Shown: positions 726-18,777 of the stretch, piece after piece | How the letters are laid out: every line of letters begins with the position of its first letter | Numbering within the stretch: position 1 is the first letter of the stretch | DNA from: a virus | Reading direction: 5' to 3' (one strand) | Length of the DNA stretch: 36,631 nucleotides | Virus record (IMG/VR): IMGVR_UViG_3300032282_005243 | Coordinates: 1-36,631 of that record | The notes under the pieces: model-generated | Seen by the model: only the letters and a program-made list of their open reading frames with translations | What the model was told of the DNA's origin: nothing | Database searches by the model: none | Program-made: the position numbers and the translations under genes

Positions 726-893
726 ATGTCAGTTTCTTATCTTCAAGCCCAGAAAAAGAATGTGCGTGTAACACTGGATCTTTCCGTGTACAGTGACTTT
801 GATGCCAGACAGATTGATTGGCGTAAGTTATTCCAACTCGATGGTGATGAGACCGTGGAGGCTTATGTGGAAGACCTGGATGTAGACTGGTAA
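726..893 (+). CDS. Conserved cyanophage micro-protein (55 aa)
   Basis: Runs from ATG 726 to TAA 891-893. The protein starts MSVSYLQAQKKNVRVTLDLS and is rich in aspartate and tryptophan towards the end (EDLDVDW). Short proteins with the same opening and the same 'DFDARQIDW(R/K)KLF' core are familiar to me as uncharacterised genes in marine T4-like cyanophages, though I cannot run a search to prove it. No catalytic motif, membrane segment or signal peptide is visible. The gene lies about 30 bases downstream of the predicted transcription start of the 665-693 promoter, consistent with early expression. There is no clear Shine-Dalgarno sequence. Function unknown. Confidence 0.7.
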   Translation: MSVSYLQAQKKNVRVTLDLSVYSDFDARQIDWRKLFQLDGDETVEAYVEDLDVDW

Positions 894-1369: not shown

Positions 1370-1372
1370 ATA
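1366..1372 (+). promoter_or_regulatory. Late-promoter-like ATAAATA overlapping a stop codon
   Basis: ATAAATA directly overlaps the TAA of the 27-residue ORF and lies about 30 bases before the next start at 1401. It resembles the T4 late promoter core. The same stop-codon overlap is seen at 17201, 30354 and 30707. Confidence 0.35.
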
Positions 1373-1400
1373 TCAGTGTTGATTAGAAAAAATTTCCCCC

Positions 1401-1578: not shown

Positions 1579-2214
1579 ATGAATTTTTTATTTGGATTGC
1601 CATATCATAAAGGAAAAATTAATCCATTTTCTTATAATAAAAAAAAGATAATCGATGATATTAATCTGAATTATGAAAGAGATCCACGTAGAAATAAGTG
1701 GAGTAATGATAACTTTCATCATTCAAATTCCGATATTGATAATCCAAACTTTATTGATATCGATTATACAGAATTAATTCCTTTGTACGAAAAAGAGATC
1801 TATAAGTTCTTTAGTCAGTATGAAAAAATTTCTGTAAAAAATAATCTAAAATTAAATATAGAAATTGCAAATTATACTGCATCAAAGAATGATCAGTACA
1901 TGGGTGAACATGCACATATACCATCGTTGTTTTATGGTATTCATTATTTGAAATTTGATTCGGAGTGTCATAAAGCAACACTTCATAGAAACACGAATAC
2001 TTTTCCAAGATATACACATCATCTATATCCAGATTTTTATAATGCTTTGGATGATAGATGTATTGAAAATTCTTGGTTGTATCAGAGTTGGGAATTTGAT
2101 ACTCAAGAGGATGATTTTTTTATTATTCCTGCAATTGTAGAGCATAGTACAAAACCTTCATATTCTGATAAACTTAGAATTACGGTTGTCATGAACATCG
2201 ATTTGACAAATTGA
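1579..2214 (+). CDS. Probable 2-oxoglutarate/Fe(II)-dependent oxygenase
   Basis: The 211-residue protein fits the short phage oxygenases of the 2OG-Fe(II) superfamily (PF13759-like). The first histidine region reads EHAHIPSLFYGIHYLKF (H111, H113), where these proteins carry the first iron ligands before a 'GxxY(L/Y)' strand. The distal part reads IPAIVEHSTKPSYSDKLRI, giving H189 as second histidine ligand and R200 eleven residues later as 2-oxoglutarate binder. Such enzymes hydroxylate proteins, nucleic acids or small molecules using O2 and 2-oxoglutarate, and are common in cyanophages with unknown substrates. Here the canonical HxD aspartate is absent (HAH), so the iron site needs checking. 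The gene is much more AT-rich than its left neighbours. It is followed by a glycosyltransferase with its own promoter, hinting at a modification function. Confidence 0.6.
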   Translation: MNFLFGLPYHKGKINPFSYNKKKIIDDINLNYERDPRRNKWSNDNFHHSNSDIDNPNFIDIDYTELIPLYEKEIYKFFSQYEKISVKNNLKLNIEIANYTASKNDQYMGEHAHIPSLFYGIHYLKFDSECHKATLHRNTNTFPRYTHHLYPDFYNALDDRCIENSWLYQSWEFDTQEDDFFIIPAIVEHSTKPSYSDKLRITVVMNIDLTN

Positions 2215-2231
2215 TATATACTTGGTAAAAT
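2203..2231 (+). promoter_or_regulatory. Sigma-70 type promoter before the glycosyltransferase
   Basis: TTGACA at 2203-2208, a 17-base spacer and TAAAAT at 2226-2231: eleven of twelve consensus bases. The -35 lies within the last codons of the oxygenase gene. The expected transcription start is near 2238, about 17 bases before the ATG at 2255. Confidence 0.65.
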
Positions 2232-2254
2232 TGAACTGAAAGTTATTTTCTCTT

Positions 2255-3034
2255 ATGGCAAAAGGATTTACTGTTAAAGCTCCTGCTCCAAAGGTACAAG
2301 AAGCAGAGTGGGATTATGATAAAATTAAAGAACGGATGCGAGGGAAGTCAATTGTATTCTGTCTTCCTGGACGAGGTTGTTCATATCAGTTTTTAAAGTC
2401 ATTTGTACAGATGTGTTTTGATCTGGTACAAAATCAAATGAGTATTCAGATTTCTCAGGATTACTCATCGATGGTGAACTTTGCGCGTTGTAAGTGTCTG
2501 GGTGCCAATGTACTGCGTGGACCAAATCAGATTCCTTGGGATGGTAAACTGCAATATGATTATCAACTGTGGATTGATAATGACATTGTGTTTAACACAG
2601 AAAAGTTCTGGCAACTCTGTGATTTGGCTCTGAGTGAAGACAGCGAAGGTAATCTCGTTAACAGAGAAATCACCGCAGGTTGGTATTGCACAGAAGATGG
2701 TCACACGACCTCAGTTGCTCACTGGTTGGAAGAAGATGACTTCCGTAAGAACGGTGGTGTGATGAATCATGAGACTCTGACCACCATGGAAAAGCGTCGT
2801 AAGCCTTTCACTGTTGACTACACTGGTTTCGGTTGGGTCATGATCAAGAACGGCGTCTTCGAGAACCTTGAGTACCCCTGGTTCGCTCCTAAGATGCAGG
2901 TCTTTGAATCTGGTAATGTTCAGGATATGTGTGGAGAAGATGTGTCCTTCTGTCTGGACGCAAAGGAAAAGGGTTTCGAGATCTGGTGCGATCCTCGGAT
3001 CCGTGTTGGTCACGAAAAGACTCGTGTAATCTGA
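2255..3034 (+). CDS. GT-A fold glycosyltransferase
   Basis: A 259-residue protein with the landmarks of a GT-A (GT2-like) transferase. An N-terminal strand with a glycine turn (IVFCLPGRG, around residue 33) is followed by a helix. A metal- and nucleotide-sugar-binding DxD-type motif sits after a hydrophobic strand: LWIDNDIVF, D108-N109-D110. Later come GEDVSFC (E228-D229), typical of the acceptor-site acidic pair, and VGHEK with H253 near the end. It would transfer a sugar from an activated donor to DNA, a virion protein or host surface glycan; the acceptor cannot be read from sequence. No signal peptide or membrane segment is seen, so it acts in the cytoplasm. The stop overlaps the next start (ATGA at 3034). 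Codon use is more GC-rich in its second half than the preceding oxygenase gene. Confidence 0.75.
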   Translation: MAKGFTVKAPAPKVQEAEWDYDKIKERMRGKSIVFCLPGRGCSYQFLKSFVQMCFDLVQNQMSIQISQDYSSMVNFARCKCLGANVLRGPNQIPWDGKLQYDYQLWIDNDIVFNTEKFWQLCDLALSEDSEGNLVNREITAGWYCTEDGHTTSVAHWLEEDDFRKNGGVMNHETLTTMEKRRKPFTVDYTGFGWVMIKNGVFENLEYPWFAPKMQVFESGNVQDMCGEDVSFCLDAKEKGFEIWCDPRIRVGHEKTRVI

Positions 3035-3189
3035 TGACCTTTGATATCCTTTATAGAGGCAGAAAATTATACCAAAATCTCACGCATGAAGAATGTGCTG
3101 AGATTCTCGATGATCTGGCACAAAGGTATTACCAAGACGAAGAATTTGATGCAAATGAATTAGAATTAAAGGAGCATACTTATGGCTAA
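3034..3189 (+). CDS. Small acidic hypothetical protein (51 aa)
   Basis: The start is taken at ATG 3034, which overlaps the glycosyltransferase stop (ATGA). An upstream in-frame ATG at 2929 would lie deep inside that gene and is rejected. The product, MTFDILYRGRKLYQNLTHEE..., carries an acidic helical second half (AEILDDLAQRYYQDEEFDANELELKEH) and resembles short cyanophage proteins with the 'YDI.YRGKxLYxNLTxEEC' opening. It overlaps the next gene by eight bases. No function is recognised. Confidence 0.65.
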   Translation: MTFDILYRGRKLYQNLTHEECAEILDDLAQRYYQDEEFDANELELKEHTYG

Positions 3190-3328
3190 ACCAAAAGGTT
3201 CAATGAATAAGGTCACTCATGTGCCTGGAGCCCCGAAAAAAACTCGGCAGGGTCGGAGTCCCATGACACTGACCTCTGCTACTTCTCGCAATGGGAAGCA
3301 AAAGAAATACAGAGGACAAGGTAAGTGA
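3182..3328 (+). CDS. Basic conserved cyanophage protein (48 aa)
   Basis: ATG 3182 to TGA 3326-3328. The sequence starts MAKPKGSMNKVTHVPGAPKK and ends KKYRGQGK; it is strongly basic with almost no hydrophobic core, so probably unstructured or nucleic-acid-binding. A good ribosome site, AAGGAG, lies at 3168-3173 within the preceding gene. It is nested between two overlapping genes: eight bases with the one before and four (GTGA) with the next, strong evidence that this very short frame is translated. I believe close relatives occur widely in marine T4-like cyanophages as uncharacterised genes. Confidence 0.7.
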   Translation: MAKPKGSMNKVTHVPGAPKKTRQGRSPMTLTSATSRNGKQKKYRGQGK

Positions 3329-3543
3329 TTCAATTGAATCCCACAATCCCAGTCGTTACCCCCAAAGGTAATGGTTGGGCATTTTTTTTAATTGATCGGT
3401 CACAGGAGCATGACCTTGAGTGGGTTGTGTTCCTAGATAATGGTGGGTATTGTTGGACTTTTAAGAACTCCGATATCCGAATTCAGAAAAATTATACTTT
3501 ACATCGAGATAAAATTCAAGATTTCGGGATAGCAACCCCGTAA
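3325..3543 (+). CDS. Conserved hypothetical protein (72 aa), GTG start
   Basis: Begins with GTG at 3325 overlapping the preceding TGA (GTGA), which fixes the start. The product, (M)IQLNPTIPVVTPKGNGWAFF..., is a compact beta-rich domain with aromatic residues: WAFFLIDRS, LEWVVFLDNGGYCWTF and a C-terminal strand pattern. 'NPxIPVxTPKGxGxAxFLID' followed by 'WVVFLDNGxxWTF' is a familiar cyanophage signature of unknown role; the fold may be SH3-like. No catalytic residues can be named. It is probably co-transcribed with the three genes before it. Confidence 0.75.
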   Translation: MIQLNPTIPVVTPKGNGWAFFLIDRSQEHDLEWVVFLDNGGYCWTFKNSDIRIQKNYTLHRDKIQDFGIATP

Positions 3544-3549
3544 AAAGTT

Positions 3550-3570
3550 CTGATTTACCAAAATCAGGAG
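3550..3570 (+). promoter_or_regulatory. Hairpin overlapping a Shine-Dalgarno sequence
   Basis: CTGATTT (3550-3556) and AAATCAG (3561-3567) form a perfect seven-pair stem with a four-base loop. The ribosome site AGGAG (3566-3570), nine bases before ATG 3580, has its first two bases inside the stem. The fold would partly hide the site and could tune translation of the 64-residue gene. No T tract follows, so it is not a classical terminator. Confidence 0.5.
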
Positions 3571-3579
3571 CTAAAATCG

Positions 3580-3774
3580 ATGGCAAAATCACCAACTGAC
3601 AAAGGAAATGACTTTATTGAGTCGGGAATGACACTCATTACTGAAATTTCCTCTGAAAAATATCTTAAAAAAGCGAAAAAAACTCAAAAATATGACATTC
3701 CAAACGATCGTTACTCAAGACCATGTGGCGGAGCAGGTGGATTTGACGATTTTGTTGAAAGATGGCACGAATAA
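3580..3774 (+). CDS. Small hypothetical protein (64 aa)
   Basis: ATG 3580 with AGGAG nine bases upstream. The protein has a lysine-rich middle (KYLKKAKKTQKYD) and a C-terminal motif PCGGAGGFDDFVERWHE. The tail 'RPCGGAGGFDDFVxRWHE' looks like a conserved element, possibly a short interaction motif, but no family is recognised. It is the last gene before the baseplate operon and is separated from gp25 by a 43-base gap with a late-type promoter. It has no membrane segment. Function unknown. Confidence 0.65.
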   Translation: MAKSPTDKGNDFIESGMTLITEISSEKYLKKAKKTQKYDIPNDRYSRPCGGAGGFDDFVERWHE

Positions 3775-4219: not shown

Positions 4220-6133
4220 ATGGCACTAGTAAACTTTAGCAATCTCGATTTCGATCAAATTAAGAGTTCTCTCAAGGAATATTTGAGGGCAAACTCGAAT
4301 TTTACTGACTATGATTTCGAAGGTTCTAATTTATCGACAATAATTGATGTTTTAGCGTATAATACTTACATTACTTCGTACAATGCTAACATGGTTAGCA
4401 ACGAAGTTTTTATTGACTCTGCAACTTTAAGAGAAAATGTCGTTTCTCTCGCAAGAGCCATTGGATATGTTCCAAAATCCAGAAGATCTTCAGTTGCAAC
4501 AATTTCTCTTTTTGTAGATACTAGTTCTTTAGCGCAAATACCTCAAACGCTAACGCTTCAGAAAGGACTTGTATGCACTAGTTCATCATCTTTTGATGGT
4601 AATAGTTATTCTTTCAATATTAATGATCCAATCACAAAACCAATTGTTAATAATATTGCAACATTTGACTCAATTCCTGTATATGAAGGAACATATATCA
4701 CTCAGACATTTACAGTAGACGCAAATAATCCAAATCAAAAATTTATACTGACAAATTCTGGAATTGATGTAAATTCCATTCGAGTTACTGTTAAAAATAC
4801 CGAAAATAGTACAATTACTCGCAAATTCAGTCTTTCGGAAACTTTCATTGATATTGGTCCAGAATCAAAAGTCTTTTTTATTCAAGAAATTGAGGATCAA
4901 AGATATGAATTAATTTTTGGTGATGGTGTTTTTGGTGTAAAACTTGATAATCTCAATTATGTTGAAGTTTCCTATTTAATTTGTAATGGAAAGAATGGAA
5001 ATGGAGTTTCAAATTTCATATACTCTGGAAGAATTTTAGATAACAACGGTAATGTTGTTATTGAATCAATTTCTGATATCACGACTGATGTTTCTTCAAA
5101 TAGTGGTCAAGATTTAGAGTCTGTAGATTCGATTAAAAAATATGCACCAAGAATTTATGCATCTCAAAATCGTGCAGTGACGGCTGCAGATTATGAAGCA
5201 TTAATTCCAACAATATTCCCTGAAGTAGAATCAATTTCAGTATATGGAGGAGAAACTTTAAATCCACCAAAATACGGAAAAGTTTTTATTTCGATAAAAC
5301 CATATAATGGTGATTTTGTTTCTAGTATCATTAAGGATACAATCAAAACAAAATTAAGAAAGTATACTGTTGCTGGAATTGTTGCTGAAATTATCGATCT
5401 TAAGTATTTGTATGTTGAGTATGATACAACTGCATATTATAATGCAAACTTAGCTCCAGGTGCAGGAACAGTAAAATCGCTGATTGATAGCAATATATCA
5501 ACATATGCACAATCTACAGAATTAAATAAGTATGGTGCAAGATTTAAATACAGTAAATTCCAAAAAATTATTGATGATAGTCATGCATCAGTAATGTCAA
5601 ATATTACCAGAATACAAATACGTCGCAATCTGCAATCTAAAATAAACAGTCTTGCGGATTATGAACTTTGTTATGGAAACGGATTTCATTTAACAAATAC
5701 AAAAAGCGGTTATAACATTAAGTCGTCAGGATTTAATGTTGATGGCATAGTTGAGACGGTATATCTTGGAGACGTTCCAAATGCTAACCAAAAAACAGGA
5801 TCGTTGTTCCTGTTTAAATTAAATTCACCAACCGATCCTATTGTAGTAAGAAATAATGTTGGATCAATTGATTATGAAAGAGGTGAAGTTAGATTATACC
5901 CAATTAAAATAACAAATACTGCAAAATCTAAAGATGGAATAAAAATTATTGAAATTTCTGCAGTTCCAGTATCAAATGATGTTATTGGAAAAGAGGATCT
6001 TTATTTGCAACTAGATATTAATAACAGTATGTTAAATATGCAAACAGATGATATTTCATCTGGAGCAAACATCTCTGGATCAACATACACAGTAACTTCA
6101 AGTTACACCAACGGAAGTTTAATCAGATTGTAA
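4220..6133 (+). CDS. gp6: Baseplate wedge subunit gp6 (baseplate J-like)
   Basis: 637 residues versus about 660 for T4 gp6. The N-terminal signature 'NFSNLDFDQIKSSLKEYLRA' followed by 'FTDYDFEGSNLSTIIDVLAYN' and 'ATLRENVVSLARAIGYVPKS' is typical of the family. A central 'RYELIFGDGVFGVKL' region and 'QNRAVTAADYEALIPTIFPEV' (near residues 313-335) match the baseplate J-like core. gp6 dimers link neighbouring wedges into the inner baseplate ring together with gp25 and gp53, and transmit the contraction signal. One base separates its stop from the next ATG. It is AT-rich like the rest of the virion block, and no insertion or break is apparent. Confidence 0.92.
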   Translation: MALVNFSNLDFDQIKSSLKEYLRANSNFTDYDFEGSNLSTIIDVLAYNTYITSYNANMVSNEVFIDSATLRENVVSLARAIGYVPKSRRSSVATISLFVDTSSLAQIPQTLTLQKGLVCTSSSSFDGNSYSFNINDPITKPIVNNIATFDSIPVYEGTYITQTFTVDANNPNQKFILTNSGIDVNSIRVTVKNTENSTITRKFSLSETFIDIGPESKVFFIQEIEDQRYELIFGDGVFGVKLDNLNYVEVSYLICNGKNGNGVSNFIYSGRILDNNGNVVIESISDITTDVSSNSGQDLESVDSIKKYAPRIYASQNRAVTAADYEALIPTIFPEVESISVYGGETLNPPKYGKVFISIKPYNGDFVSSIIKDTIKTKLRKYTVAGIVAEIIDLKYLYVEYDTTAYYNANLAPGAGTVKSLIDSNISTYAQSTELNKYGARFKYSKFQKIIDDSHASVMSNITRIQIRRNLQSKINSLADYELCYGNGFHLTNTKSGYNIKSSGFNVDGIVETVYLGDVPNANQKTGSLFLFKLNSPTDPIVVRNNVGSIDYERGEVRLYPIKITNTAKSKDGIKIIEISAVPVSNDVIGKEDLYLQLDINNSMLNMQTDDISSGANISGSTYTVTSSYTNGSLIRL

Positions 6134-6134: not shown

Positions 6135-9100
6135 ATGTCGCAAGTAAGAGTAAAGACTAGTTTAATCGTTGAGAATCAGGTTCCTTCTTATGTTAGAGAA
6201 GAATTTCCACTTCTTGTCGAATTTTTGTCTCAGTATTATAAATCATTAGATTATCAAAGTGCTGCATCAGATATTCTTCAAAATATTGATCAGTATGTAA
6301 AGATTGATAATCTTGTAAATTTAACTGAGTCTACCACTCTTACCAATGTCGTAGAATTATACGATACAACAATTACTGTTAGTTCAACAACTGGATTTCC
6401 AGATACTTATGGATTAATCCAAATTGATAATGAAATTATCACTTACGAATCAAAAACTTCAACAACTTTTGTAAACTGCAAAAGAGGATTTTCTGGCACT
6501 ACTTCATACCAAAACCCATCAAGAAAGGATGAATTAGTATTTGAAGATTCAAATGTAGAGGAGCATGAATCTGGAACTACAGTATTAAATCTAAGCATTC
6601 TCTTTTTAAAGGAATTCTTATTAAAGGTCAAAAAACAGATTTCTCCAGGATTTTCTGGAAGATCCTTATATTCTGGAATAAATGAGTCTTTATTTCTAAA
6701 ACAAGTTAAAGACTTTTACTCCTCAAAAGGAACGGATAACTCATTTAAAATTTTATTCAATGCATTATATGGTGATACTGATTCTTCTGTCATTAAGCCA
6801 AGAGATCATCTAATTCAACCATCAGATGCTCAATATTACATTACCAAAGATTTGGTGGTAGAAAGATTACAAGGTGACCCAATGGATCTCGTTGGGAAAT
6901 CGTTGTATCAAGATGCTAGCACTTTTATTGAAGCTGCAAAGGGTATAATTTCTAAAGTTGAAAAAATTGTTAGAGGAAATAGAGAGTATTATGTATTGAG
7001 TATTGATTATGATCAAGATAGAGATAGTGATTTTTCACAATCTATTGGCGATTTTTCAATTCACCCTAAAACTATAACAACAGCAACAGCGGGAATTGGT
7101 GTTACAACTCTTGAAGTAGATTCTACAGTTGAATATCCACAATCAGGAACTTTATTAATCAATCCAACTCAAGATACACAATTTTTTGTAACGTATACTG
7201 ACAAAACAATAAACCAGTTTTTGAATTGTTCTGGAATAACACAGACAATTGAATCTGGTAAAGAAATTTTTGCAGATAGTTATGCTTATGGTTATTCTGC
7301 AATTTCTACTGATAATATTGTAAAGGTTAGAATTTCTGGCGTCCTATCAGATTTAGATATACTCGATGAAACTTATTATTATGAAAAGAATGATCAAATT
7401 CAAATTAAATCTTTGGGATCAGATTTAAAATCGGTTAAAGCAAATACTTGGTTTTTTAATATTTCAACGAGATTTGACGTAAAATCAATTGAATTGGTAG
7501 ATAATTCAAACTATACCTACAAAGTCAATCTTTATGATGAGCATGAATTTGTAATCGGAGATTCTATTACATTAATTACATCAAACAATAAAGAATTTTA
7601 TGGTGAAATTATTCCAGAAAATATTTCATCAACATATTCTTCAGATATTTCTGGAATTTACTCATCAAATATATCTGGATTTGATAATCGCAAATCATTT
7701 AATATTGTTGGGCAAGGACCATTAAACATAAATGCTTATTATACTGTTAGAAAAAATATAACAAAAGTATCTACAACAAACTATCCAGAAATACACAAAT
7801 ATACTTCAAACGTTCAAAATGTATACACAGATTTAAACGATAATTTGTATGTCGCTTCAAACTCTCTTCCAAAATATTATAATAGACCATTAACGATTAA
7901 TGATAGGTCTATTACTTTCTCTGGGACTTTTTCTGGAACGCAACTGGTCATTGGTAATCATGGTTTATTGACAGGAGATGCAATTATATACAATCCTGTA
8001 GATGATAGCAATAAACTTGATTTATTTCCTGGAATTTATTTCGTTAGAAGACTTACAGAAACGTCAATAAGTCTTGCAAGAAGTAAAGAAAATCTTCATT
8101 CAGAAAATTATATTTCTGTAAATGGCGTAGTAACAAATAATAAATTTTATCTTCTCAATTTGAGTGATGAAACATTAGAAGAAAATAGAGTAAAACCTCA
8201 AAAATTAATTCGTAAATTATCAACACCGTCTGATGATGGATCTGTCCACACTACTCCAATTGGAGCGACGGGAATATTTGTTAATGGTGTAGAATTAACA
8301 AACTACAAGTCCGAAGATATTATTTTCTTTGGTCCACTTCAAGAAATTTTTCCAACTACTCCTGGAAGTGGTTATGATGTTATCAATCCACCAATTTTAA
8401 CTATTTCTGATCAACATGGAACTGGCGCAGCGGGAATTTGCAGTGTAACGGGATCTTTGGTCAGAGTTGATGTTATTGATGGTGGATTTGATTACTTAGA
8501 AGATCCTATTATTACAATTACTGGAGGAAATGGATCTGGAGCTTTAGTAAAACCAAATTTAATTGAGTTTGACCATTCTGCAGTTTTTAATTCTTCAGCA
8601 AGTGCATTACAAGTCAGCACATCAAATAATACTATCGGATTTTCGAGTTATCATAAATTTAGAGATGCAGAAGAAATAGTATATGGCACTCAAGGCGGAA
8701 CGGGTGTTGGTGGTCTCACAACAGGAGCAAAATATTATGTTTCTGTACAAGATGGATTTACTGTAAAATTACACAAAACTTTATTGGATGCTGCTGTTGG
8801 AATCAATACTGTAGATTTAACATCTTTTGGTGCAGGAAATCATAAATTTGCATCTACATCCAAAAAGAAAAAGATTGGTTCGATTTCTGTTGAAAACGGA
8901 GGTACTGGATATAGTAGTGGAGGAAATCCAGTTCAACTTATAATTAAAGGAAGAGTTGGAATTTCTACTTTAACTGGGCAAAGTTTTGATGCTGTTTTAA
9001 AACCAATATTTAGAGGACAGATAACATCAGTTTCGCTTACTTCCGGTGGAGAAAAGTATGGCAAAGAAGATATTATCAATTATGACTATCAACCAACATT

Positions 9101-12100
9101 CTCTTTAAATAGTGGATCTGGTGCAGAAGTTTTACCCGTAATTTTTAACGGAAAAATAAAGCAAGTTTTTGTTACAAATTCTGGTAGTGGATATAATTCA
9201 ACACCAAACCTTATTATCAACGATCCTGCAGGTACTGGAGCTGTTCTTTCTCCTATTATTAGTAATGGGCAATTAGTCGAAGTAAAAGTAATTTTTGAAG
9301 GTTTAGGGTATTCTGAAGGTGTTAACATTGATGTAGTTGCTGCAGGATCTGGTGCTTCGTTCAAAGCAAAAATTGCATCATGGAGAATAAACAACGTAGA
9401 AAGGTTAAGATATTTTAATCAGTTACCTTTAGATGATGGAATTTTGTTTAAATCCAAAAAAGACTCTTACGGGTTAAAGTATACACATTCATATGCTCCT
9501 CGAAATTTAAGATCTTCAGCTCTAGCATATAGTTTTGTTGATGAAGTTCCAATTTATGTTCCCGATCTACAAATCCTAAACGGTGCAGAAACTGATTCTA
9601 GTATTCATTCACCAATACTTGGGTGGGCATATGATGGAAATCCAATTTATGGTCCATATGGATTTGATTCTAATGGAAATGTTAAGAGAATGGCCTCTGG
9701 TTATACGCAAATAACCAATTCCAATAGACCTAGCGTTTTGCAATATCCATTAGGATTTTTTGTTGAAGATTACCAATTCACAGGATCTGGTGATTTGGAT
9801 GAACATAATGGAAAGTTTGGCCCAACTCCAGAATATCCAGAAGGCATTTATGCATATTTCTGCACAATACATTCAATCAATGATTCTGTTGGCAGTTTCC
9901 AATTTTATAGAAGACCAGTGTTCCCATATGTAATTGGACATGCTTACAAATCGAATCCAATCGATTTCAATTTCTTAACAACTTCTAATCAGGATGAAAT
10001 TAATATCAATGAAACAAATTGGAGTAGAAATACTAGACCATATCACCTCAATAGGCCTAGAAGTTATTATGATTTTGTTCTTGATCCAAATAAAATTAAA
10101 AAACAACTGTCAATTGTTAAAAGTGCAACAAGATCTGGAATAGATTCTATTGGAATCACTACTGGAGGATCCAATTATCAAATTGGAGATAAACTCATCT
10201 TTAACAATAGTGGAACTGGTGGATTTGGCATTTCCGCAGAAGTTTCTCTTTTGGATGGAAAAGAAATCACAAATATTGGTATAGGAACATCAACATTATC
10301 GAATGTTCAAATGGTTCCTTTAGCAAATTCCAAGAAGTTTATTGGATATGTAGAGAATCCACATGCTTTATTGAATAATGAACTCGTTTCTTTCTCTGCA
10401 TCTGGAATTTCTACTAGTGGAAATATTAGTGTTTTAAACAATAAATTAACTCTCACATCTGGAGTTGGATCTGCAGTATATACGGGATTAGTAACGTATT
10501 TTAATGTAAGCGGAAATCTTTCCATCATTAAAGAAAACGATGTTTATCAAATTGCTAATGAAGATATTAAGATTTTAAACGTTGATGTTCCTTCATCTAG
10601 AATCAGGGTTTTACGAAACTATCAGGGTATATCAACAGTTTCAGCAGGAACTACATTAACAGAAAAGACAAGAAGATTTGAACTGTCTTTTGGTATTTCA
10701 ACTTCAACCTATAACTTAAAATTAGATAAACAATTATACTTTGATCCAAAAGAATCTATCGGATTAGGAACTGTTTCTGGTCCTGGAATAGGATATACTT
10801 TGAGTTTTACAAATCCTGGTGCAGGAATTACTCAAGTTAATATTCCTGTAGGATCCTTATGGTTACCAAATCATGAATTGGAAACGGGAACGGAATTAGT
10901 ATATTCTCCAAATGGTGGCGTTGCAGTCTCAATTTCAACTGATGGTATATCAAGTTATCAACTTGCAGATAATTCTGTTCTGTATGCAACAAAACTTAGT
11001 GAGTATTTAATTGGTATTTCTTCTGTTAGAGTTGGACTTGGAACAACTGGTTCATTTGTCGGTATTGGCTCAACACAAGCGTCATTGTTATACTTTACTA
11101 ATGTTGGCGCAGGAAATTCACATAGTTTTACTACAAATTATGAAAACACTTTAAAGGGAACTGTATCATCAAATAGAGTTACAGTTGCTACAGCATCAAC
11201 ACACGGATTGCAAGTTAACGATACTGTTAAGGTTTTCGTTTTACCCGGAGTTGTTACAAGTTTGTATTCTGGAACTTATAGTTTAGTTTCATCTGCAGGA
11301 ACCCAATTCTCTTATTCGATTTTAAATTATCCAGAAGTTGCTTCATATGCGAGTGGAGAGTTAAAGTATCAAACAACTTCTACAAATGCATATGGACCAA
11401 TTTGTGCAGTCAATTTGAAATCTAAAGGACTTTCATATGCAACACTTCCTACAGTATCAACAGTAAAGAGTGGAATTGGAACAAATGCAGAATTAATTGC
11501 ATATGGAAGAAATATTGGTAAAATTAATAAAGTTGAAATTCAAGATATTGGGTTTGATTATCCTTCAGATTTAAGTTTAAGACCTACTGCAAGTATTCCT
11601 CAGATTTTAAAAGTACAAAATCTAGTTTCATTTAAATCAATTGGAATTTCTTCTGTAGGAAGAAACTATAATATTGCTCCAGATTTAATTGTAATTGATT
11701 CATTAACAAGAAAAGTAAATCCAAATGTAGAGTTGGATTATAAACTTGGAGATACTCAAGTTACTATTTTAAAAAATACTAATGACCTTTATAGCAATTC
11801 TACAACTATTTTTCCAGTTAACAATACTAATGGAGTTGGTATTAGTACAATAAAATTTATCCAATCATCTCAAGATGTTGTCGTAACTTTAGGATCAAGT
11901 TTTAGCAATGCTGCAGACTTCCCATTTGCTATTGGTGATAAAGTTTTAATTGAAAATATTAGTGTTGGTGTAGGATCAACAGCAAAAGGATACAATTCTT
12001 CTGCATATGGATATGAGTTATTTACTATTATAAACATCGATCCAAATATTGGTGGAATTGGAGCCACAGTTTCTTACAATATTGCTGGAAAATTAGCTTT

Positions 12101-15100
12101 TGGAGAATATGTTGGAAACTACGATCCAATTAATTCAACTGGAAGAATTATTCAAGAAAAAGACCTTCCTATTTTTACTCCAGAATATTTGGAAAATACT
12201 TTCCTTAATGGAGAAACTGTATATACACAATCATCTTCAGGAAAGATTATAAGATGGAATGAAAATAATCTTCTCATGAAAGTTGCAACTGACAAAGATT
12301 TTTCAGTTGGAGAGACTATAGTTGGCAAATCTTCTAAGGCAGCATCGATAATAAAAGAAATTATTTCTTTCGATTCTATTTACAATGTCAAAGCTTCATC
12401 TATTGTCAAGAAAGGTTGGCAAAGAGAAACTGGATTCTTAGATAATGATATTCAAAAAATTCATGACAATGATTATTATCAGTATTTTTCATATTCAATA
12501 AAAACTAAAATTCCATTTTCTGAGTGGGATGAAACTGTTGATGATTTAAACCATTCAGTTGGATTTAAAAAATTCGCTGATTTGCAGATACAATCTTCTT
12601 CAGAATCTGTTGGAGTTGGATCTACCTTATCCGCAGAAATTTCATCAATTGTTGAATTAGATTCTGTTCTGAATTTAAATTGCAAATCAGATTTTGATAA
12701 TGCACGAGAAAATAATATTATTTTGGATAATAACTATGCATCCAATCAAATAATATTTGATTCGGCAATTCTGCAGGATTACTTAGAATCTGTTGGAAAT
12801 AGAGTTCTTACAGTTGATGATCTGGGCGATGAATTTAATAGTAATCCAAGATCAACAAAATATTCAAATATTGATGTATTTGATCTGGCAACAGGTAGAT
12901 ATAGAAAGTATTTAACTTATGTAAATGATGAAGCATATGTTGACCAAAATCAAGTTATGTTGGTCTCATTGTTGCACAACAATACTTATGGATTCTTAAA
13001 TCAATATGGACAAATTTATAATTTAGATAGCCTTGGATCTTTTGATTTTAGTATTCTCGGTTCGGAAGGTATTTTGCAGTTTTATCCAACATTTTTTGCG
13101 GATAACGAATACAATATTTCCTTCTCCAACCTTTCAGTCGCAGATTTAACGACTTCTACTGGAAAACAAAGTTTAGGTGATATTGTAAGTATTGCTTCTT
13201 CTAGTGTAACAATTCCAACAGGAACAACAACAGCAACAACAGTCGTTGGAATAGCATCTACTTACAGAGGATCTAAAGTCTATGTTGTAATTGGTGCTGA
13301 AGATGGATCATATTACGAAGTAGATGAACTTAGCATAGTTCATGATGATAATAATGTTTTATATATGGATTATGGGCAATTGTCAACAGATAATATTTCA
13401 TCTTTTGGATCTCCTGGAATTGGAACTTATATTGCTTACCTTTCTGGATCAGAATTAAAAATTGATTTAAAACCAACAGCAGGATTATCTACAAATCATT
13501 TTGTTAACACTATTAGAGTTTCTATTGCAAATTCATCTGCAGTTGGTGTTGGAACTTCTAACATGTTTGATAGTTACATTAATTCAAATGTAACGAATAT
13601 TTCTGCATCAGGATCACCAACAGCTACAACAGTTGCATCATTTGGTAAAAATTATAATGCAGCATATTACATTGCCGTTGTAGAAAATCTGACCGACAAT
13701 CAATATCAAATATCAGAATTGGTTTCGATGAAAAACCAATCAAATGCATATGTTTCAGAATATGGATTTGTTCAAACTGATGGTTCTATTGGAGATTATA
13801 CAATTGCTAGAATTGGTGACGATACTGCATTACAATTTACCCCAAAAGCAAACGTAGATGTTCAAGTAAGAGTATTCCAACAAGTTCTTACGTCAACTCA
13901 TAATCATAATTATCCATCCACAATAAGTCTCAATAATGCATCTGTTAACAGTGGTCATGGTTTTTATGAAGGGACAAATGCTGCAACTAGAAAGAGTTTC
14001 GAATTAACTCATAAAGAATTACCAATTTTTGAAAGATATTTTTCTGGAAATTCTTCTGATATTGTAAATGTCGATGCAGACCAAGTTAAAATACCAGCAC
14101 ATTATTTTGTAACTGGAGAAAAACTTGTTTATGAGTATTCATCTTCTGATGTTGGAACTATAAACGCAATTGGAATTGCAACAACCACAATTATCGGAGT
14201 CGGTTCAACCGATAAATTACCAAAAACCATATATGCTGTTAAGGAGAATGATTTATACTTGAAATTTGCTGGATCAGCTGCAGATGCTTTATCTACTCCA
14301 CCAAATATCTTAGATATTACTAGTGTTGGTATAGGAACATCTCACGTATTGAGATCAACAAATCAAAATGCTAGAGCGATCATTGCAATTGATAATGTAA
14401 TTCAATCACCTATTGTTGCTACCGCAGTAACAACAACTGTATCTGCAGACGTTGGATCAGTAACCGAGTTGATTACATTATCTGGTATAACTTCAATTTT
14501 TAGTGGCGATTTAATTAAGATTGATAATGAAATAATGCAAGTTGCAACCTTGGGATTTGGAGCAACAAACGTTGCAATAGTATCAAGAGGTCAATTAGGA
14601 TCAGGAATCGCTACTCATGCTTCTGGTGCTGTAATTACAAAATTACTTGGTAATTATAACATTGATAATAATACGATCCATTTCCCTGTTGCTCCTTGGG
14701 GGAAAGTTCCATTTACCAATCCATCAACAAGACCAGATGAACAGGACTATGTTGGATTGGAGACTGGATCAACATTTAGTGGTAGAGTATTTTTAAGATC
14801 TGGAAAATCCAATACTTCTGAAGATGCTTATTTCTACAATAAAGTGTTTGATGATATTTCTGCATCATTTACTGGAGCAACCAATGATTTTACGTTAAAA
14901 TCAGGAGGCTCTAATATTACTGGTATAAGCACCAGTAATGCTGTAATCTTAATCAACCAAGTTTTCCAAGGACCATCAAGATCAACTATTCCAGTAACAA
15001 TAGAAGGAAATTATAGTCTTTCACAATCTTCTGGGATAACTACCATTTCGTTTATAGGTAGTCAATCTCAGTCATATGATATCAATGCCTCACAACTTCC

Positions 15101-17204
15101 AAGAAAAGGCATTATTGTTTCGGTTGGTTCAACGTCTGGATTAGGATATCAACCATTAGTTGCTGCTGGTGGAACAGCAACTGTTTCCATCGCAGGAACG
15201 ATTAGTTCAATTTCTATCGGAAATAGTGGTTCTGGTTATAGATCAGGAGTACAAACAGTTAGAGTTGGAGTTGCAACTTCAAGTACTGGCACTCCAAATA
15301 TTGAATTTATTGGAACTGCTGCTGTCCAAAATGGTAATGTTGTGAGCATTGCAATTACAAATCCAGGAGCAGGATATACATCAACAAATCCGCCTATTGT
15401 AATTTTCGATTCTCCACTTTCTTATAGCAATATTCCTTTAATTTACAGTTCCACATCTCCAATTGGACTTGGAAGTGGAGCCAAGGTTGATATTATCGTT
15501 GGTCAAGGATCCAGTGTAGTTAATTTTGAAATTGTGAATACTGGTTATTCTTATGGTCAAGGAGATATTTTAACTGTTGCAATTGGAGGAACTGTAGGAA
15601 TTCCCACAAATACATCATTACCATTTAAAGAATTCCAAATTTCAGTCGATAGAACTGCAACAGATTCTTTTGCTGGATGGTCTATTGGTGATCTTCAGGT
15701 TATTGATCCAATTGATACTTTATTTGACGGTGAAAGAAAAACTTTCCCAATTAAGATAAATGATGTTTTAACTTCTATTAGATCTAAGCAAGGATCTTCA
15801 GTCGATGTTGAAGCAACATTACTGGTATTCATCAATGATGTTCTCCAATTCCCAGGAAAGGGTTACTTATTCCCAGGAGGAAACTTAATCACATTCCCAG
15901 AACCTCCAAAATCGGGCGATACTTCAAAAATATTATTCTATAAGGGAAATGGTGAAATTGATGTTAATTTAATTGATATTTTAGAACCAATTGAAGTGGG
16001 TGATAGTTTACAATTAATAGATGATTCGATATATCTCACACAAGATGAAAGATTGGTTACAGATGTATCTGCAAGCGATTATGTTACAACTAACACCTAT
16101 TTTAGTCCAGGATTAACATTTGGATCGACTACAAGAAGACCAGTTACATTATGCTATAAAACTGAAGATAAAATTATTGATGGATTGGAAGTTGGAAAGA
16201 CAAGAATTCTTTATGAACCATTTATTCAACCATCATCAAATATTATTAGTAGTCTTGGAATAAGTTCTTCTGTAATTTATGTCGAAAATGTCAACACAAT
16301 ATTTGATGCTGAGAATGAAAATACTGCAGGTAATGCCGACTATAGAAAGGTTACCATTACATCGCAGGATTCTATCGTAGGAGCGTCTGCAACAGCAGTG
16401 GTTTCTGTTGCAGGTACAATATCATCATTTGTCATTAGTAATGGTGGTTATGGATATACTTCTGCTCCAGAAGTCATAGTAGCAAATCCTGTTGGATTAG
16501 GTTCTACTTATAGATCTGTTGGATCTGCAACAATTGTGAATGGTGTTGTTACTTCAATTTCTGTTTTAAGAGCAGGAACTGGATATACAAGCGCAAATCC
16601 ACCTTTAGTTTTTATTGGTTCTCCTAATGCAAAGAAAGAAACCGTTTCTAATGTAAATTATGAAGGTGACTTTGGAATTATTACTGGAATTAATACAACA
16701 TCAGTTTCTGTTGCAACAACAGGATTGGTATTTAATTTCTTTATTCCAAAGAATTCATACCTTAGAGATCTTCATGTTAATAGCGTTGGAATAGCAACAA
16801 CAGGAGTTTCTGGAATTTCTACTGGATACTATTTTGTCATTAAAAATTCAAATGTTGGAAAAGGAGTTACTGCAATAGATGAAAATGGATCAATCGTTGG
16901 TGTGGGAACAACATGTTTAGACAATATCTACAAAGCAGTTGCTGTTTCTATTGGACAAACATCCGTTCCAGGAATTGGATTAACTTATGTTGCAAAAGTA
17001 ACTGTAAGCCTTACGAATTACAATAATTTAACAGGTTTAGGATTTAGCTCTTTCTATGGAGAATATAGTTGGGGAAGAATTTATAATTTAGATCGTACCA
17101 ATCCAAAATCATTTGCAAATTATAATAATGGCATGGTAGGAGTTTCAACATCCCCAACTGTTCAAAGACTCCTCCCATTAAAACACCGAGATTATACTAC
17201 ATAA
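6135..17204 (+). CDS. gp7: Giant gp7-like baseplate wedge protein with YHYH-type domain
   Basis: An unbroken ORF of 3,689 residues; T4 gp7 has 1,032. Two separated segments match the C-terminal part of T4 gp7: residues about 165-300 (DFYSSKG at 193-199, KILFNALYGD, DLVGKSLY at 251-258) and about 2092-2155 (GWQRETG, NDIQKIHDND, then SVGFKKF). Between them lie about 1,800 extra residues. These include many GxGY beta repeats (near 743, 783, 920, 1010-1070, 1335, 1755-1880) and a YHYH-type domain (G1163-W-A-Y-D-G-N-P-I-Y-G-P, then LDEHNGKFGPTPEYPEG and the core Y1239-A-Y-F, where YHYH would stand). Downstream are a roughly 130-residue tandem duplication (2359-2592), an IDNEI..RG module (near 2785-2840; another at 75-125) and more GxGY repeats (3023-3130, 3430-3500). 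It probably forms the peripheral wedge scaffold and may bear fibre or sugar contacts. It is located between gp6 and gp8 exactly as gp7 is in T4. Confidence 0.8.
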   Translation: MSQVRVKTSLIVENQVPSYVREEFPLLVEFLSQYYKSLDYQSAASDILQNIDQYVKIDNLVNLTESTTLTNVVELYDTTITVSSTTGFPDTYGLIQIDNEIITYESKTSTTFVNCKRGFSGTTSYQNPSRKDELVFEDSNVEEHESGTTVLNLSILFLKEFLLKVKKQISPGFSGRSLYSGINESLFLKQVKDFYSSKGTDNSFKILFNALYGDTDSSVIKPRDHLIQPSDAQYYITKDLVVERLQGDPMDLVGKSLYQDASTFIEAAKGIISKVEKIVRGNREYYVLSIDYDQDRDSDFSQSIGDFSIHPKTITTATAGIGVTTLEVDSTVEYPQSGTLLINPTQDTQFFVTYTDKTINQFLNCSGITQTIESGKEIFADSYAYGYSAISTDNIVKVRISGVLSDLDILDETYYYEKNDQIQIKSLGSDLKSVKANTWFFNISTRFDVKSIELVDNSNYTYKVNLYDEHEFVIGDSITLITSNNKEFYGEIIPENISSTYSSDISGIYSSNISGFDNRKSFNIVGQGPLNINAYYTVRKNITKVSTTNYPEIHKYTSNVQNVYTDLNDNLYVASNSLPKYYNRPLTINDRSITFSGTFSGTQLVIGNHGLLTGDAIIYNPVDDSNKLDLFPGIYFVRRLTETSISLARSKENLHSENYISVNGVVTNNKFYLLNLSDETLEENRVKPQKLIRKLSTPSDDGSVHTTPIGATGIFVNGVELTNYKSEDIIFFGPLQEIFPTTPGSGYDVINPPILTISDQHGTGAAGICSVTGSLVRVDVIDGGFDYLEDPIITITGGNGSGALVKPNLIEFDHSAVFNSSASALQVSTSNNTIGFSSYHKFRDAEEIVYGTQGGTGVGGLTTGAKYYVSVQDGFTVKLHKTLLDAAVGINTVDLTSFGAGNHKFASTSKKKKIGSISVENGGTGYSSGGNPVQLIIKGRVGISTLTGQSFDAVLKPIFRGQITSVSLTSGGEKYGKEDIINYDYQPTFSLNSGSGAEVLPVIFNGKIKQVFVTNSGSGYNSTPNLIINDPAGTGAVLSPIISNGQLVEVKVIFEGLGYSEGVNIDVVAAGSGASFKAKIASWRINNVERLRYFNQLPLDDGILFKSKKDSYGLKYTHSYAPRNLRSSALAYSFVDEVPIYVPDLQILNGAETDSSIHSPILGWAYDGNPIYGPYGFDSNGNVKRMASGYTQITNSNRPSVLQYPLGFFVEDYQFTGSGDLDEHNGKFGPTPEYPEGIYAYFCTIHSINDSVGSFQFYRRPVFPYVIGHAYKSNPIDFNFLTTSNQDEININETNWSRNTRPYHLNRPRSYYDFVLDPNKIKKQLSIVKSATRSGIDSIGITTGGSNYQIGDKLIFNNSGTGGFGISAEVSLLDGKEITNIGIGTSTLSNVQMVPLANSKKFIGYVENPHALLNNELVSFSASGISTSGNISVLNNKLTLTSGVGSAVYTGLVTYFNVSGNLSIIKENDVYQIANEDIKILNVDVPSSRIRVLRNYQGISTVSAGTTLTEKTRRFELSFGISTSTYNLKLDKQLYFDPKESIGLGTVSGPGIGYTLSFTNPGAGITQVNIPVGSLWLPNHELETGTELVYSPNGGVAVSISTDGISSYQLADNSVLYATKLSEYLIGISSVRVGLGTTGSFVGIGSTQASLLYFTNVGAGNSHSFTTNYENTLKGTVSSNRVTVATASTHGLQVNDTVKVFVLPGVVTSLYSGTYSLVSSAGTQFSYSILNYPEVASYASGELKYQTTSTNAYGPICAVNLKSKGLSYATLPTVSTVKSGIGTNAELIAYGRNIGKINKVEIQDIGFDYPSDLSLRPTASIPQILKVQNLVSFKSIGISSVGRNYNIAPDLIVIDSLTRKVNPNVELDYKLGDTQVTILKNTNDLYSNSTTIFPVNNTNGVGISTIKFIQSSQDVVVTLGSSFSNAADFPFAIGDKVLIENISVGVGSTAKGYNSSAYGYELFTIINIDPNIGGIGATVSYNIAGKLAFGEYVGNYDPINSTGRIIQEKDLPIFTPEYLENTFLNGETVYTQSSSGKIIRWNENNLLMKVATDKDFSVGETIVGKSSKAASIIKEIISFDSIYNVKASSIVKKGWQRETGFLDNDIQKIHDNDYYQYFSYSIKTKIPFSEWDETVDDLNHSVGFKKFADLQIQSSSESVGVGSTLSAEISSIVELDSVLNLNCKSDFDNARENNIILDNNYASNQIIFDSAILQDYLESVGNRVLTVDDLGDEFNSNPRSTKYSNIDVFDLATGRYRKYLTYVNDEAYVDQNQVMLVSLLHNNTYGFLNQYGQIYNLDSLGSFDFSILGSEGILQFYPTFFADNEYNISFSNLSVADLTTSTGKQSLGDIVSIASSSVTIPTGTTTATTVVGIASTYRGSKVYVVIGAEDGSYYEVDELSIVHDDNNVLYMDYGQLSTDNISSFGSPGIGTYIAYLSGSELKIDLKPTAGLSTNHFVNTIRVSIANSSAVGVGTSNMFDSYINSNVTNISASGSPTATTVASFGKNYNAAYYIAVVENLTDNQYQISELVSMKNQSNAYVSEYGFVQTDGSIGDYTIARIGDDTALQFTPKANVDVQVRVFQQVLTSTHNHNYPSTISLNNASVNSGHGFYEGTNAATRKSFELTHKELPIFERYFSGNSSDIVNVDADQVKIPAHYFVTGEKLVYEYSSSDVGTINAIGIATTTIIGVGSTDKLPKTIYAVKENDLYLKFAGSAADALSTPPNILDITSVGIGTSHVLRSTNQNARAIIAIDNVIQSPIVATAVTTTVSADVGSVTELITLSGITSIFSGDLIKIDNEIMQVATLGFGATNVAIVSRGQLGSGIATHASGAVITKLLGNYNIDNNTIHFPVAPWGKVPFTNPSTRPDEQDYVGLETGSTFSGRVFLRSGKSNTSEDAYFYNKVFDDISASFTGATNDFTLKSGGSNITGISTSNAVILINQVFQGPSRSTIPVTIEGNYSLSQSSGITTISFIGSQSQSYDINASQLPRKGIIVSVGSTSGLGYQPLVAAGGTATVSIAGTISSISIGNSGSGYRSGVQTVRVGVATSSTGTPNIEFIGTAAVQNGNVVSIAITNPGAGYTSTNPPIVIFDSPLSYSNIPLIYSSTSPIGLGSGAKVDIIVGQGSSVVNFEIVNTGYSYGQGDILTVAIGGTVGIPTNTSLPFKEFQISVDRTATDSFAGWSIGDLQVIDPIDTLFDGERKTFPIKINDVLTSIRSKQGSSVDVEATLLVFINDVLQFPGKGYLFPGGNLITFPEPPKSGDTSKILFYKGNGEIDVNLIDILEPIEVGDSLQLIDDSIYLTQDERLVTDVSASDYVTTNTYFSPGLTFGSTTRRPVTLCYKTEDKIIDGLEVGKTRILYEPFIQPSSNIISSLGISSSVIYVENVNTIFDAENENTAGNADYRKVTITSQDSIVGASATAVVSVAGTISSFVISNGGYGYTSAPEVIVANPVGLGSTYRSVGSATIVNGVVTSISVLRAGTGYTSANPPLVFIGSPNAKKETVSNVNYEGDFGIITGINTTSVSVATTGLVFNFFIPKNSYLRDLHVNSVGIATTGVSGISTGYYFVIKNSNVGKGVTAIDENGSIVGVGTTCLDNIYKAVAVSIGQTSVPGIGLTYVAKVTVSLTNYNNLTGLGFSSFYGEYSWGRIYNLDRTNPKSFANYNNGMVGVSTSPTVQRLLPLKHRDYTT
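13209..13910 (+). repeat. Tandem duplicated domain inside the gp7-like protein
   Basis: Residues about 2359-2475 and 2489-2592 align as two diverged copies. Both begin with TATTV, share the pattern 'Y(Y/Q)...(D/S)EL....(N/Q)..(V/A)Y..(D/E)YG....D' and end in a strand 'I/V-R-V'. The offset between the TATTV anchors (13230 and 13620) is 390 bases, i.e. 130 codons. DNA identity is low, so the duplication is old. No family is recognised. Confidence 0.6.
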
Positions 17205-17223: not shown

Positions 17224-18777
17224 ATGGCTGCTATCATAACAGATCAATTTAGAATATTGAGTGCTAAGAATTTTGTTTCTGCAGCAAGTTCTTCAGACAA
17301 TTCATATTATGTTTTTGTAGGACTTCCAAACGCATCTGAATATAGTTCAACTTGGGATGCAAATCCTCCTGCCCCAAAAGATAATTTTGATGAAGAAAAT
17401 GCATATTGGGATACTGCAATAGCTCTTAAAAAGGTATCTACAGAAAACATCAAACAAGTTATTAGAAAAATAACTTGGAGTTCTGGAACGACTTATGATA
17501 TGTATCGCCATGATATAAGTAGATCTAATACATCAAAACCTTCTGGAGTTACTAGTTTATATCAAGCAAATTATTATGTTGTAAACAACGAATATCGTGT
17601 TTACATTTGCTTACAAAATGGTACTAATCCAGAAAATCCCGAAGGAAGACCTTCTCTGGATGAACCAACATTCACAGATTTAGAACCAAGATCTGCAGGA
17701 ACTAGTGGTGACGGATATATTTGGAAATATCTTTATACAATTTCTCCAAGCGATATCATTAAGTTTGAAACTTCTAATTTTATTCCTGTACCAAAAAATT
17801 GGGAAACTAGTGATGCAAATTCGGTAGTTAGAAATAATGCAGAAACGAGTGGACAAATTAAAATCGTTACCATCAAAAATCGTGGAGTTGGTATCGGAAC
17901 AGCAAATACAACATATACAAGAGTTCCTGTTAAAGGTGACGGAAATGGAGCTGAGGTAACTATTGTAGTTAATAATAATTCTAAAGTAGAATCAATAAGT
18001 GTTTCAAACGGTGGTTCTGGATATTCATATGGAACTGTTGATTTAGTAGCAGGAAATGTTCCTACAGGAACCACTGCTCCAGAGTTTGATGTTATAATTC
18101 CACCAAAAGGTGGTCATGGTGCAGACATTTATAGAGAACTGGGAGCAAATAGAGCGGTTCTTTATGCGAGAATTGAAAATGATACTCAAGACCCAGATTT
18201 TATTACTGGAAATCAAATTTCTAGAGTTGGAATAATTGAAAATCCTTTAGTTTTTGGATCCGATTCCATTTTAACATCAGATAAAGCAGCTGCTGTTTAC
18301 GCATTGAAATTGGTTGGAGCTGGATATAGCACAGTAACATTTACAGCAGATAGTCTCATTACACAAACAGTTGGGGTTGCATCAACAGCAGTTGGTAGAG
18401 TTGTATCCTATGATCAAAATACTGGTGTTTTAAAATATTGGCAAGATAGAACTCTTGTTGGATTTAATAGTGATGGTACAAAGAATTCAAGTCCAATTTA
18501 TGGATTTAGATTGCATAGATTTACTTCATCACCTGGCGTAGGTGGTACAACTATTATCCAAGGTGGAACTACAAATTTATCAATCGATACAAACTTTACT
18601 GGTATATCAACCTCAATAAATAGTAGGACATATTATTTTGGACAAAATTTTATTAATGGTGTGTCCAATCCAGAAGTTGAAAAATATTCTGGAAATATTA
18701 TTCATGTAGACAACAGACCTTCAGTTACTAGGTCGTCAAGTCAAAAAGAAGATATCAAGGTAATTTTGCAATTCTAA
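17224..18777 (+). CDS. gp8: Baseplate wedge subunit gp8
   Basis: 517 residues versus 334 in T4. The ends match T4 gp8: an N-terminal 'ITDQFRILSAKNFV' (T4: 'IVTSKFRTEKMLNFY'), the hallmark SGDGYIWKYLYTI (GDGY at 162-165; T4 GDGYVWEYLFEI) followed by FIPVPKNWE, and the C-terminus HVDNRPSVTR...EDIKVILQF (T4 MENRPPI...EEINILFTF). The extra length lies between residues about 215 and 480 and includes one GxGY module (ESISVSNGGSGYSYG, near residue 257). gp8 forms the dimer at the wedge periphery that binds gp7, gp10 and gp6. It follows gp7-like and precedes the DUF4815 gene by six bases, in T4 order. Confidence 0.88.
   Translation: MAAIITDQFRILSAKNFVSAASSSDNSYYVFVGLPNASEYSSTWDANPPAPKDNFDEENAYWDTAIALKKVSTENIKQVIRKITWSSGTTYDMYRHDISRSNTSKPSGVTSLYQANYYVVNNEYRVYICLQNGTNPENPEGRPSLDEPTFTDLEPRSAGTSGDGYIWKYLYTISPSDIIKFETSNFIPVPKNWETSDANSVVRNNAETSGQIKIVTIKNRGVGIGTANTTYTRVPVKGDGNGAEVTIVVNNNSKVESISVSNGGSGYSYGTVDLVAGNVPTGTTAPEFDVIIPPKGGHGADIYRELGANRAVLYARIENDTQDPDFITGNQISRVGIIENPLVFGSDSILTSDKAAAVYALKLVGAGYSTVTFTADSLITQTVGVASTAVGRVVSYDQNTGVLKYWQDRTLVGFNSDGTKNSSPIYGFRLHRFTSSPGVGGTTIIQGGTTNLSIDTNFTGISTSINSRTYYFGQNFINGVSNPEVEKYSGNIIHVDNRPSVTRSSSQKEDIKVILQF

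Follow-up and report, generated by a model that had tools for sequence, protein, structure and literature searches.

Evidence for a split gp7 core with a nested internal insert in a giant baseplate wedge protein of a T4-like cyanophage

In contractile tails, the core of the baseplate wedge is formed by (gp6)2-gp7 or an equivalent complex (PMC6300606, PMC10457771), and TssG of the T6SS and gpI of phage P2 are gp7 counterparts by structure comparison (PMC6300606). The T4 protein is represented in Pfam by Gp7_helical, Gp7_5th and Gp7_6th and in the PDB by 5IV5 and 5HX2; its helical core is interrupted by domain V (residues 766-861 according to Pfam), so that a mild split exists already in T4 gp7. 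In the gp7 ortholog of Vibrio phage XM1, gp17 (242 aa), a loop separates domain I into two halves, and two sets of tail spikes are held by the loop (residues 80-106) and by the C-terminus (201-242) (PMC10457771). Cyanomyoviruses lack g10, g11, and g12 (PMC2984593), and according to a 2020 study pelagi- and cyanomyophages have no T4 gp7, its place being taken by VrlC (PMC7029224). In purified S-SZBM1 virions, a 6,619-aa 'baseplate wedge initiator' was detected with 71 peptides (PMC9146016).

Here, we analyze a giant open reading frame from a 36.6-kb IMG/VR virus contig (36,631 nucleotides, the whole of which is referred to as the window). Its product shares with T4 gp7 the gene position between gp6 and gp8, the helical core, domain V within that core, and the closing HPxGF block, but differs in where the extra bulk lies: in T4 it consists of domain VI and the N-terminal ~640 residues, in the giant protein it is found inside domain V and after core block B. 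The minimal gp7s of PF23786 (Ackermannviridae and C48C1 type) share the core A1-A2-B but have no insert; in the C48C1 type, A2 and B are 4-13 residues apart, and the Ackermannviridae form stops right after block B. The 'baseplate wedge initiators' of Kyanoviridae (S-SM2, P-SSM2, P-HM1, syn9, S-RIM8; 3,048-6,395 aa) belong to the same family and have the split architecture, differing from the window protein in insert length and module set. Judging by published residue numbers and description, XM1 gp17 holds its spikes at sites that resemble those expanded in giant gp7, between the core halves and after the core, but its 27-residue loop binds separate spikes non-covalently, whereas giant gp7 carries thousands of residues in cis. 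Taken as a whole, the giant ORF is very likely best explained as a gp7 with a split core and a nested insert, for whose added parts an outer-baseplate role is proposed.

The giant ORF and its gene neighborhood

The giant ORF (Table 1) runs through 3,689 codons in one frame, without an internal stop. At least seven intact full-length homologs of the same length class (3,680-3,695 aa) are present on independent IMG/VR contigs, and an assembly artefact as the origin of the ORF is therefore ruled out. The protein falls into PHROG 2885, 'baseplate wedge subunit' (E = 0), and the operon order is gp25, gp6, giant ORF, gp8, with T4 genes 6-7-8 arranged likewise. As read from its sequence, the giant ORF encodes the wedge protein gp7, and the phage is a T4-like cyanophage. 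A candidate host-recognition gene near the tail genes, at positions 31122-32237, encodes a protein whose N-terminal domain is of the major tropism determinant type (Mtd_N).

Table 1. Coordinates of the giant gp7, its segments and neighboring genes in the window.
Feature	Residues	Position	Strand	Basis
gp6, wedge partner of gp7		4220..6133	+	phrog_219, PF21379
Giant gp7, baseplate wedge protein	3,689 aa	6135..17204	+	single ORF
Core segment A1, first helical segment of gp7 core	7-39	6153..6251	+	HMM E 8.4e-8
Spacer A1-A2, small insertion between core helices	40-179	6252..6671	+	block positions
Core segment A2 with S/AKGT motif	180-231	6672..6827	+	HMM E 9.5e-14
First part of T4-gp7 domain V	232-310	6828..7064	+	hhalign
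Internal insert of beta modules inside domain V	311-2053 (about 1,740 aa)	7065..12293	+	
Run of GG-x-GY beta repeats	743-1079	8361..9371	+	iterated repeat HMM
Small beta-barrel module between repeats	812-909	8568..8861	+	AF2 model
YHYH domain	1153-1245	9591..9869	+	PF14240 E 1.6e-22
Further beta repeat	1336-1368	10140..10238	+	repeat HMM 6e-10
Module collinear with pelagiphage short insert	1752-1831	11388..11627	+	pelagi-type alignment
Closing part of domain V	2054-2098	12294..12428	+	window 2054-2145 to T4 818-889
Core block B, DNDYYQYFSY...NHSVGF	2099-2154	12429..12596	+	HMM E 1e-15
C-terminal extension	2155-3689	12597..17204	+	repeats; no T4 gp7 match
gp8, wedge subunit		17224..18777	+	phrog_438, PF09215
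VrlC/DUF4815 protein	2,492 aa	18784-26262		downstream of gp8

Core blocks, domain V, and the breakpoint

To locate the core, eight short homologs, and neither T4 nor any giant cyanophage protein, were used to build HMMs of A1, A2, and B. Each HMM matches the window protein exactly once. On T4 gp7, the A2 HMM matches residues 731-759 (1.3e-9) and the B HMM residues 860-894 (3.2e-4), the best E-values for reversed and 10x-shuffled decoys being 0.12 and 0.58, respectively. The T4 gp7 equivalents are residues about 646-675 for A1, about 720-760 for A2 (hhalign to T4 725-758, E 5.5e-9), and about 850-893 for B, and the start of the window protein corresponds to T4 residue about 646. The helical core (T4 about 643-765 and 862-893) is thus present in the window protein by both the HMMs and hhalign. 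In profile-profile comparison, window residues 185-291 aligned to T4 725-814 (E 4.6e-10, probability 97%), and residues 2054-2145 to T4 818-889 (E 2.4e-4). The direct match of window block B to T4 is weak (E 2e-3 to 2e-4), and the case for it depends on intermediate homologs; in the C48C1 protein, the A1 region aligns to residues 1-52 (E 7.6e-7) and block B to residues 146-200 (E 2.1e-6). The Pfam model Baseplate_wedge (PF23786), which assumes an uninterrupted core, scored 24.3 bits at residues 7-48 of the window protein, below its cut-off of 27, and 70.9 and 51.5 bits with the C48C1 and pelagi-type proteins. These results bear out the preliminary description, in which two blocks of the protein had been matched to consecutive parts of T4 gp7: the parts are 725-814 and about 818-889, they lie side by side in natural homologs, and profile comparison of each block revealed neither a better unrelated family nor non-adjacent gp7 parts. 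The first block was correctly recognized as core but is slightly longer than claimed, since residues 7-39 match the helical core too.

Profile tiles across the rest of the window protein matched T4 gp7 nowhere else, its N-terminal ~640 residues and domain VI (920-1012) included. We conclude that the N-terminal ~640 residues are a feature of the T4 lineage and do not define the family, because the minimal homologs lack them as well.

The intermediate homologs were compared with T4 gp7 by both sequence and structure. An alignment of the C48C1 family (19 sequences) matched T4 gp7 residues 646-893 in one stretch (E 3.7e-5; 0.29 with the reversed template), T4 domain V being the only large gap. When a C48C1-type profile (13 sequences) was compared with all PDB sequences, T4 gp7 came first (E 0.011), followed by an unrelated protein at 1.7; profile residues 20-131 fell on T4 650-759, and residues 154-198 on 852-894, the latter piece being weak and sub-threshold. 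An AF2 model was obtained, from a 33-sequence alignment, for a natural, unaltered 867-aa pelagiphage-type gp7 with a shorter insert (L137). In a Foldseek search, its top PDB match was T4 gp7 (5iv5, E 4.7e-4), and VIA-align to T4 gp7 gave Z 10.4 over 87 residues with an rmsd of 2.7 A. The matched range was model residues 246..599 on T4 764..851, and a Klebsiella gp7 as well as another T4 structure gave the same span; confidence in the model's helical core is low (pLDDT 30-66 across the helices and block B). Neither an hmmsearch of the PDB with the pelagi-type alignment nor a search with an Ackermannviridae gp7 as single query revealed a PDB relative, and the single P2 gpI sequence gave no match above background in a profile comparison with the gp7 family. 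The phiM12 short form matched TIGR02242 at 1e-5, below the family cut-off.

With these data at hand, the published view that gp7 is truly absent (PMC7029224) can be weighed. It would have the VrlC/DUF4815 protein substitute for gp7 and the giant ORF encode a fibre-like protein with a chance resemblance. Direct phmmer of the whole window protein revealed no real PDB relative, so that intermediates are required, and in several records the giant ORF bears the label of a structural protein or a putative fiber protein. A chance resemblance is at odds with core blocks matching to E 1e-15 with clean decoys, with the position of the ORF between gp6 and gp8, with the homologs that bridge it to T4 gp7, and with the relative whose top structural match is T4 gp7; the VrlC-like gene, for its part, lies downstream of gp8 and has no gp7 link in Pfam or PHROGs. 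We therefore regard true absence of gp7 as highly improbable. On the sequence comparisons made here, the 2020 claim is contradicted and requires correction, and we retain the identification of the giant ORF as gp7.

Domain V shows where the core is opened. Window residues 249-310 aligned to T4 778-823 (hhalign, E 7.6e-4) and the closing part of domain V aligned to that of pelagi-type proteins (E 1.8e-17), so the match to T4 766-861 is itself split, into window residues 249-310 and 2054-2098. A piece similar to the T4 814-829 strand region is found in both window halves. The Pfam model Gp7_5th gave no match on the window protein; the insert is placed within domain V because the domain V match of the pelagiphage-type relative spans both sides of its repeats. 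The insert breakpoint is inside T4 domain V.

Distances for A2 and B are correlated across 17 proteins (r 0.61, p 2e-4), and all 203 environmental ORFs that contain both blocks have one copy of each in the same order, 4 to 2,248 residues apart; the loci of this sample were retrieved by similarity and are hence biased, while block order and copy number were unselected. An origin of A and B as separate genes or in different proteins, later united through fusion of neighboring genes, is compatible with the window sequence taken alone, and one contig (L238:367-12040) does have gp7 broken into two overlapping ORFs that separate A from B, through either a sequencing frameshift or a real break. Natural short proteins in several phage groups, however, keep A and B side by side, T4 has the same order, and the correlated distances argue against separate origins, which leaves fusion of this kind extremely unlikely. 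A split architecture of the gp7 core is, in our judgement, nearly certain. On another contig (L245:2140-10818), the ORF stops early past block B, again through a sequencing frameshift or a real break.

Homolog lengths and layering of the insert

Homologs in the gp6-gp8 slot vary widely in length. They are found in phages C48C1 (316 aa), Dickeya RC-2014 (284), Variovorax (486), Xanthomonas X1 (498), Stenotrophomonas YB07 (503), BUCT-ZZ01 (607), Melnitz (896), phiM12 (1007), HTVC008M (1016), S-PM2 (3048), S-SM2 (4156), P-HM1 (4446), P-SSM2 (5195), syn9 (6076), and S-RIM8 (6395). The conserved core in the smallest natural forms amounts to about 280-320 aa (C48C1 316, Ackermannviridae 284). The A2-B gap is 8 residues in C48C1, about 9 in Ackermannviridae (by eye), and ~100 in T4, and continues through 197, 257, 387, 520, 801, and 1583 to 1867 in the window protein, 2143-2345, and ~2716. 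The beta repeat (GG-x-GY type) is missing from C48C1 and T4, present in one to three copies, in the gap only, in short forms, and in up to 10 copies in the gap, as well as past block B, in giants. In the gp7s of S-RIM8 (L014) and syn9 (L015), a second insertion of ~650 residues lies between A1 and A2 (about 40-685) and contains four of the same beta repeats.

The pelagiphage form is collinear with the window protein across the mapped segments. Its residues 1-354 align to window 1-425 (E 7e-23), residues 445-660 of the pelagi-type alignment to window 1752-2157 (E 4.7e-22), and the repeat of the pelagiphage short insert to its window counterpart at 1336-1368 (pelagi 363-412 to window 1327-1376, E 4.8e-10); the last 180 pelagiphage residues have no match on the window protein. 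The older insert therefore persists and has been opened by newer modules. Comparison of the window protein with 57%-identical relatives revealed clean modules of 85 and 220 residues that are present or missing, both being missing from the window protein.

From these maps, we conclude that the insert is built by nested accretion. The first layer is domain V in the helical core, as seen in T4; the next, beta repeats placed in or beside domain V, as in the Stenotrophomonas/Xanthomonas and pelagiphage forms; and the latest, more repeats, small barrels, and the YHYH domain put into that insert in cyanophages. The reverse course, in which an ancestral long form lost its insert by deletion in T4, C48C1, Ackermannviridae, and pelagiphages, is unlikely. 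At least one loss is possible, as C48C1 is filed under Kyanoviridae yet has a gap of 8, and the window itself is without the 85- and 220-residue modules of its relatives; but in the gp6 tree all nine giants form one clade (99/97) and the short forms are scattered across the rest (deeper branches are poorly resolved), a long ancestor requires several independent losses to the same joint, and the YHYH domain is restricted to giants.

The insert of the window protein agrees in size with the preliminary figure of ~1,800 residues: the helical blocks are separated by 1,867 residues, or about 1,740 net without both domain V pieces, and the YHYH domain and the beta repeats that had been proposed to fill this gap are both real. 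The proposal that gp7 was opened by internal insertion rather than extended by terminal fusion holds for these ~1,740 residues and for a single interrupted unit, but is incomplete in that ~1,530 residues have also been added after block B and the T4 N-terminal ~640 are undetected; moreover, the opening is a rule of the whole clade, and T4 already has domain V at this place.

The gp7 label and the great length of these proteins are already in databases. Annotation as gp7 is frequent, though not universal, among Kyanoviridae homologs, and PHROGs divides the family among numerous entries whose names disagree; where short gp7s are called 'head closure Hc2', the probable reason is a repeat that they have in common with the neck protein. 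A literature search, with subscription journals largely outside its scope, revealed no description of the split core, the insert-length ladder, or the nesting. The present analysis merges no fewer than eight protein families with differing labels, 'head closure Hc2' and 'virion structural protein' among them, into a single family and provides residue boundaries for the gp7 core and each module. With 8 to 2,716 residues inserted at one joint and older inserts visible in newer ones, the core has stayed intact though repeatedly opened.

Added modules and their proposed function

Within the GG-x-GY run of the insert, scored repeat copies are located at 778-806, 914-951, 963-1001, 1008-1041, and 1049-1079, with no decoy match at E<1, and AF2 pLDDT is about 90 over most of the run. 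The barrel module between them matches phage endosialidase barrels (phi92, K1F, NF) with VIA Z 5.6-6.8. It also matches the ubiquitin-E1 barrel (VIA Z 9); the ubiquitin-E1 and EF-Tu matches were set aside as functional clues and taken to reflect a common small barrel. The YHYH domain scored 80.9 bits against a PF14240 cut-off of 25, with an altered signature (YAYF in place of YHYH); it is present once, within the insert, in all nine giants (9/9) and in none of the shorter forms. A Foldseek search with the AF2 model of the window insert gave no PDB match below 1e-3.

The window repeats have no Pfam match, and their similarity to T4 gp18 domain I is Z 5.8. A repeat pair in the L137 model (residues 373-485) resembles the same domain of the T4 tail sheath protein with VIA Z 9.0 (74 aa, rmsd 2.3), and PF22639 scored 28.1 bits against a cut-off of 27 in a Stenotrophomonas homolog (L019:4550-5149). 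The same beta repeat occurs in neck protein gp14 (27499-28884), with four copies in its C-terminal half, and once in gp8 (aa 255-285, 3.6e-6). This distribution hints that sheath, neck, and baseplate share one mobile beta module.

The C-terminal extension measures 1,535 residues, in line with the about 1,500 noted before, and contains four more beta repeats (3023-3056, 3069-3094, 3429-3458, and 3472-3496). No tile of it matched T4 domain VI or other gp7 parts, and alignment revealed no counterpart in the pelagi-type C-terminus. The most conserved stretch of the protein, residues 3001-3100 (15135-15434), is 75-81% identical with relatives that are ~50-57% identical overall, and looks like an interface or active part.

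As gp7, the giant protein is predicted to be present once per baseplate wedge, as partner of the gp6 dimer. The core halves would rejoin across the insert as in uninterrupted homologs, giving a (gp6)2-gp7 unit, and the insert and the C-terminal extension would exit this core and make an outer, receptor-facing part of the baseplate. The added parts would thus act covalently for what are separate proteins elsewhere: gp10, gp11, and gp12 in T4, and the spikes bound to gp17 in XM1. We lean slightly towards such an outer-baseplate or receptor role by analogy with these systems, and, based on the beta repeats, the YHYH domain, and their position, the inserted domains are plausibly adhesins. It is also conceivable, to a degree that deserves serious attention, that the core is split but the insert and C-terminal extension are structural (an outer ring, a sheath-like spacer, or a virion stabiliser) and do not bind receptors. 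The beta repeat is indeed like T4 sheath gp18 domain I, both in the relative's model and through PF22639 in the Stenotrophomonas homolog; it recurs in gp8 and neck gp14, which are not receptor-binding in T4; and the most conserved stretch falls in the C-terminal extension. The YHYH domain, the endosialidase-like barrel, and an insertion site that in XM1 docks spikes point outwards instead, and gp12 needs some substitute for host recognition.

If the added parts do face receptors, a broader reading may tentatively be put forward, in which the entire outer, host-recognizing baseplate of marine T4-like phages (the work of gp10-gp11-gp12 in T4) was transferred in cis to the core wedge protein. The route, an equally tentative part of this same reading, would be repeated nested insertion at one joint together with C-terminal growth. 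If true, a single polypeptide of 3,000-6,600 residues, in six copies, would constitute both the contraction-controlling core and a receptor-facing apron. The phages concerned infect SAR11 and the ocean's most abundant phototrophs, and the split-gp7 map allows the insert to be tested directly as the host-recognition part. In S-PM2, an extra virion protein gene (L008:24148-24675) lies between gp7 and gp8 and may be a part of the gp7 C-terminal extension that has become separate.
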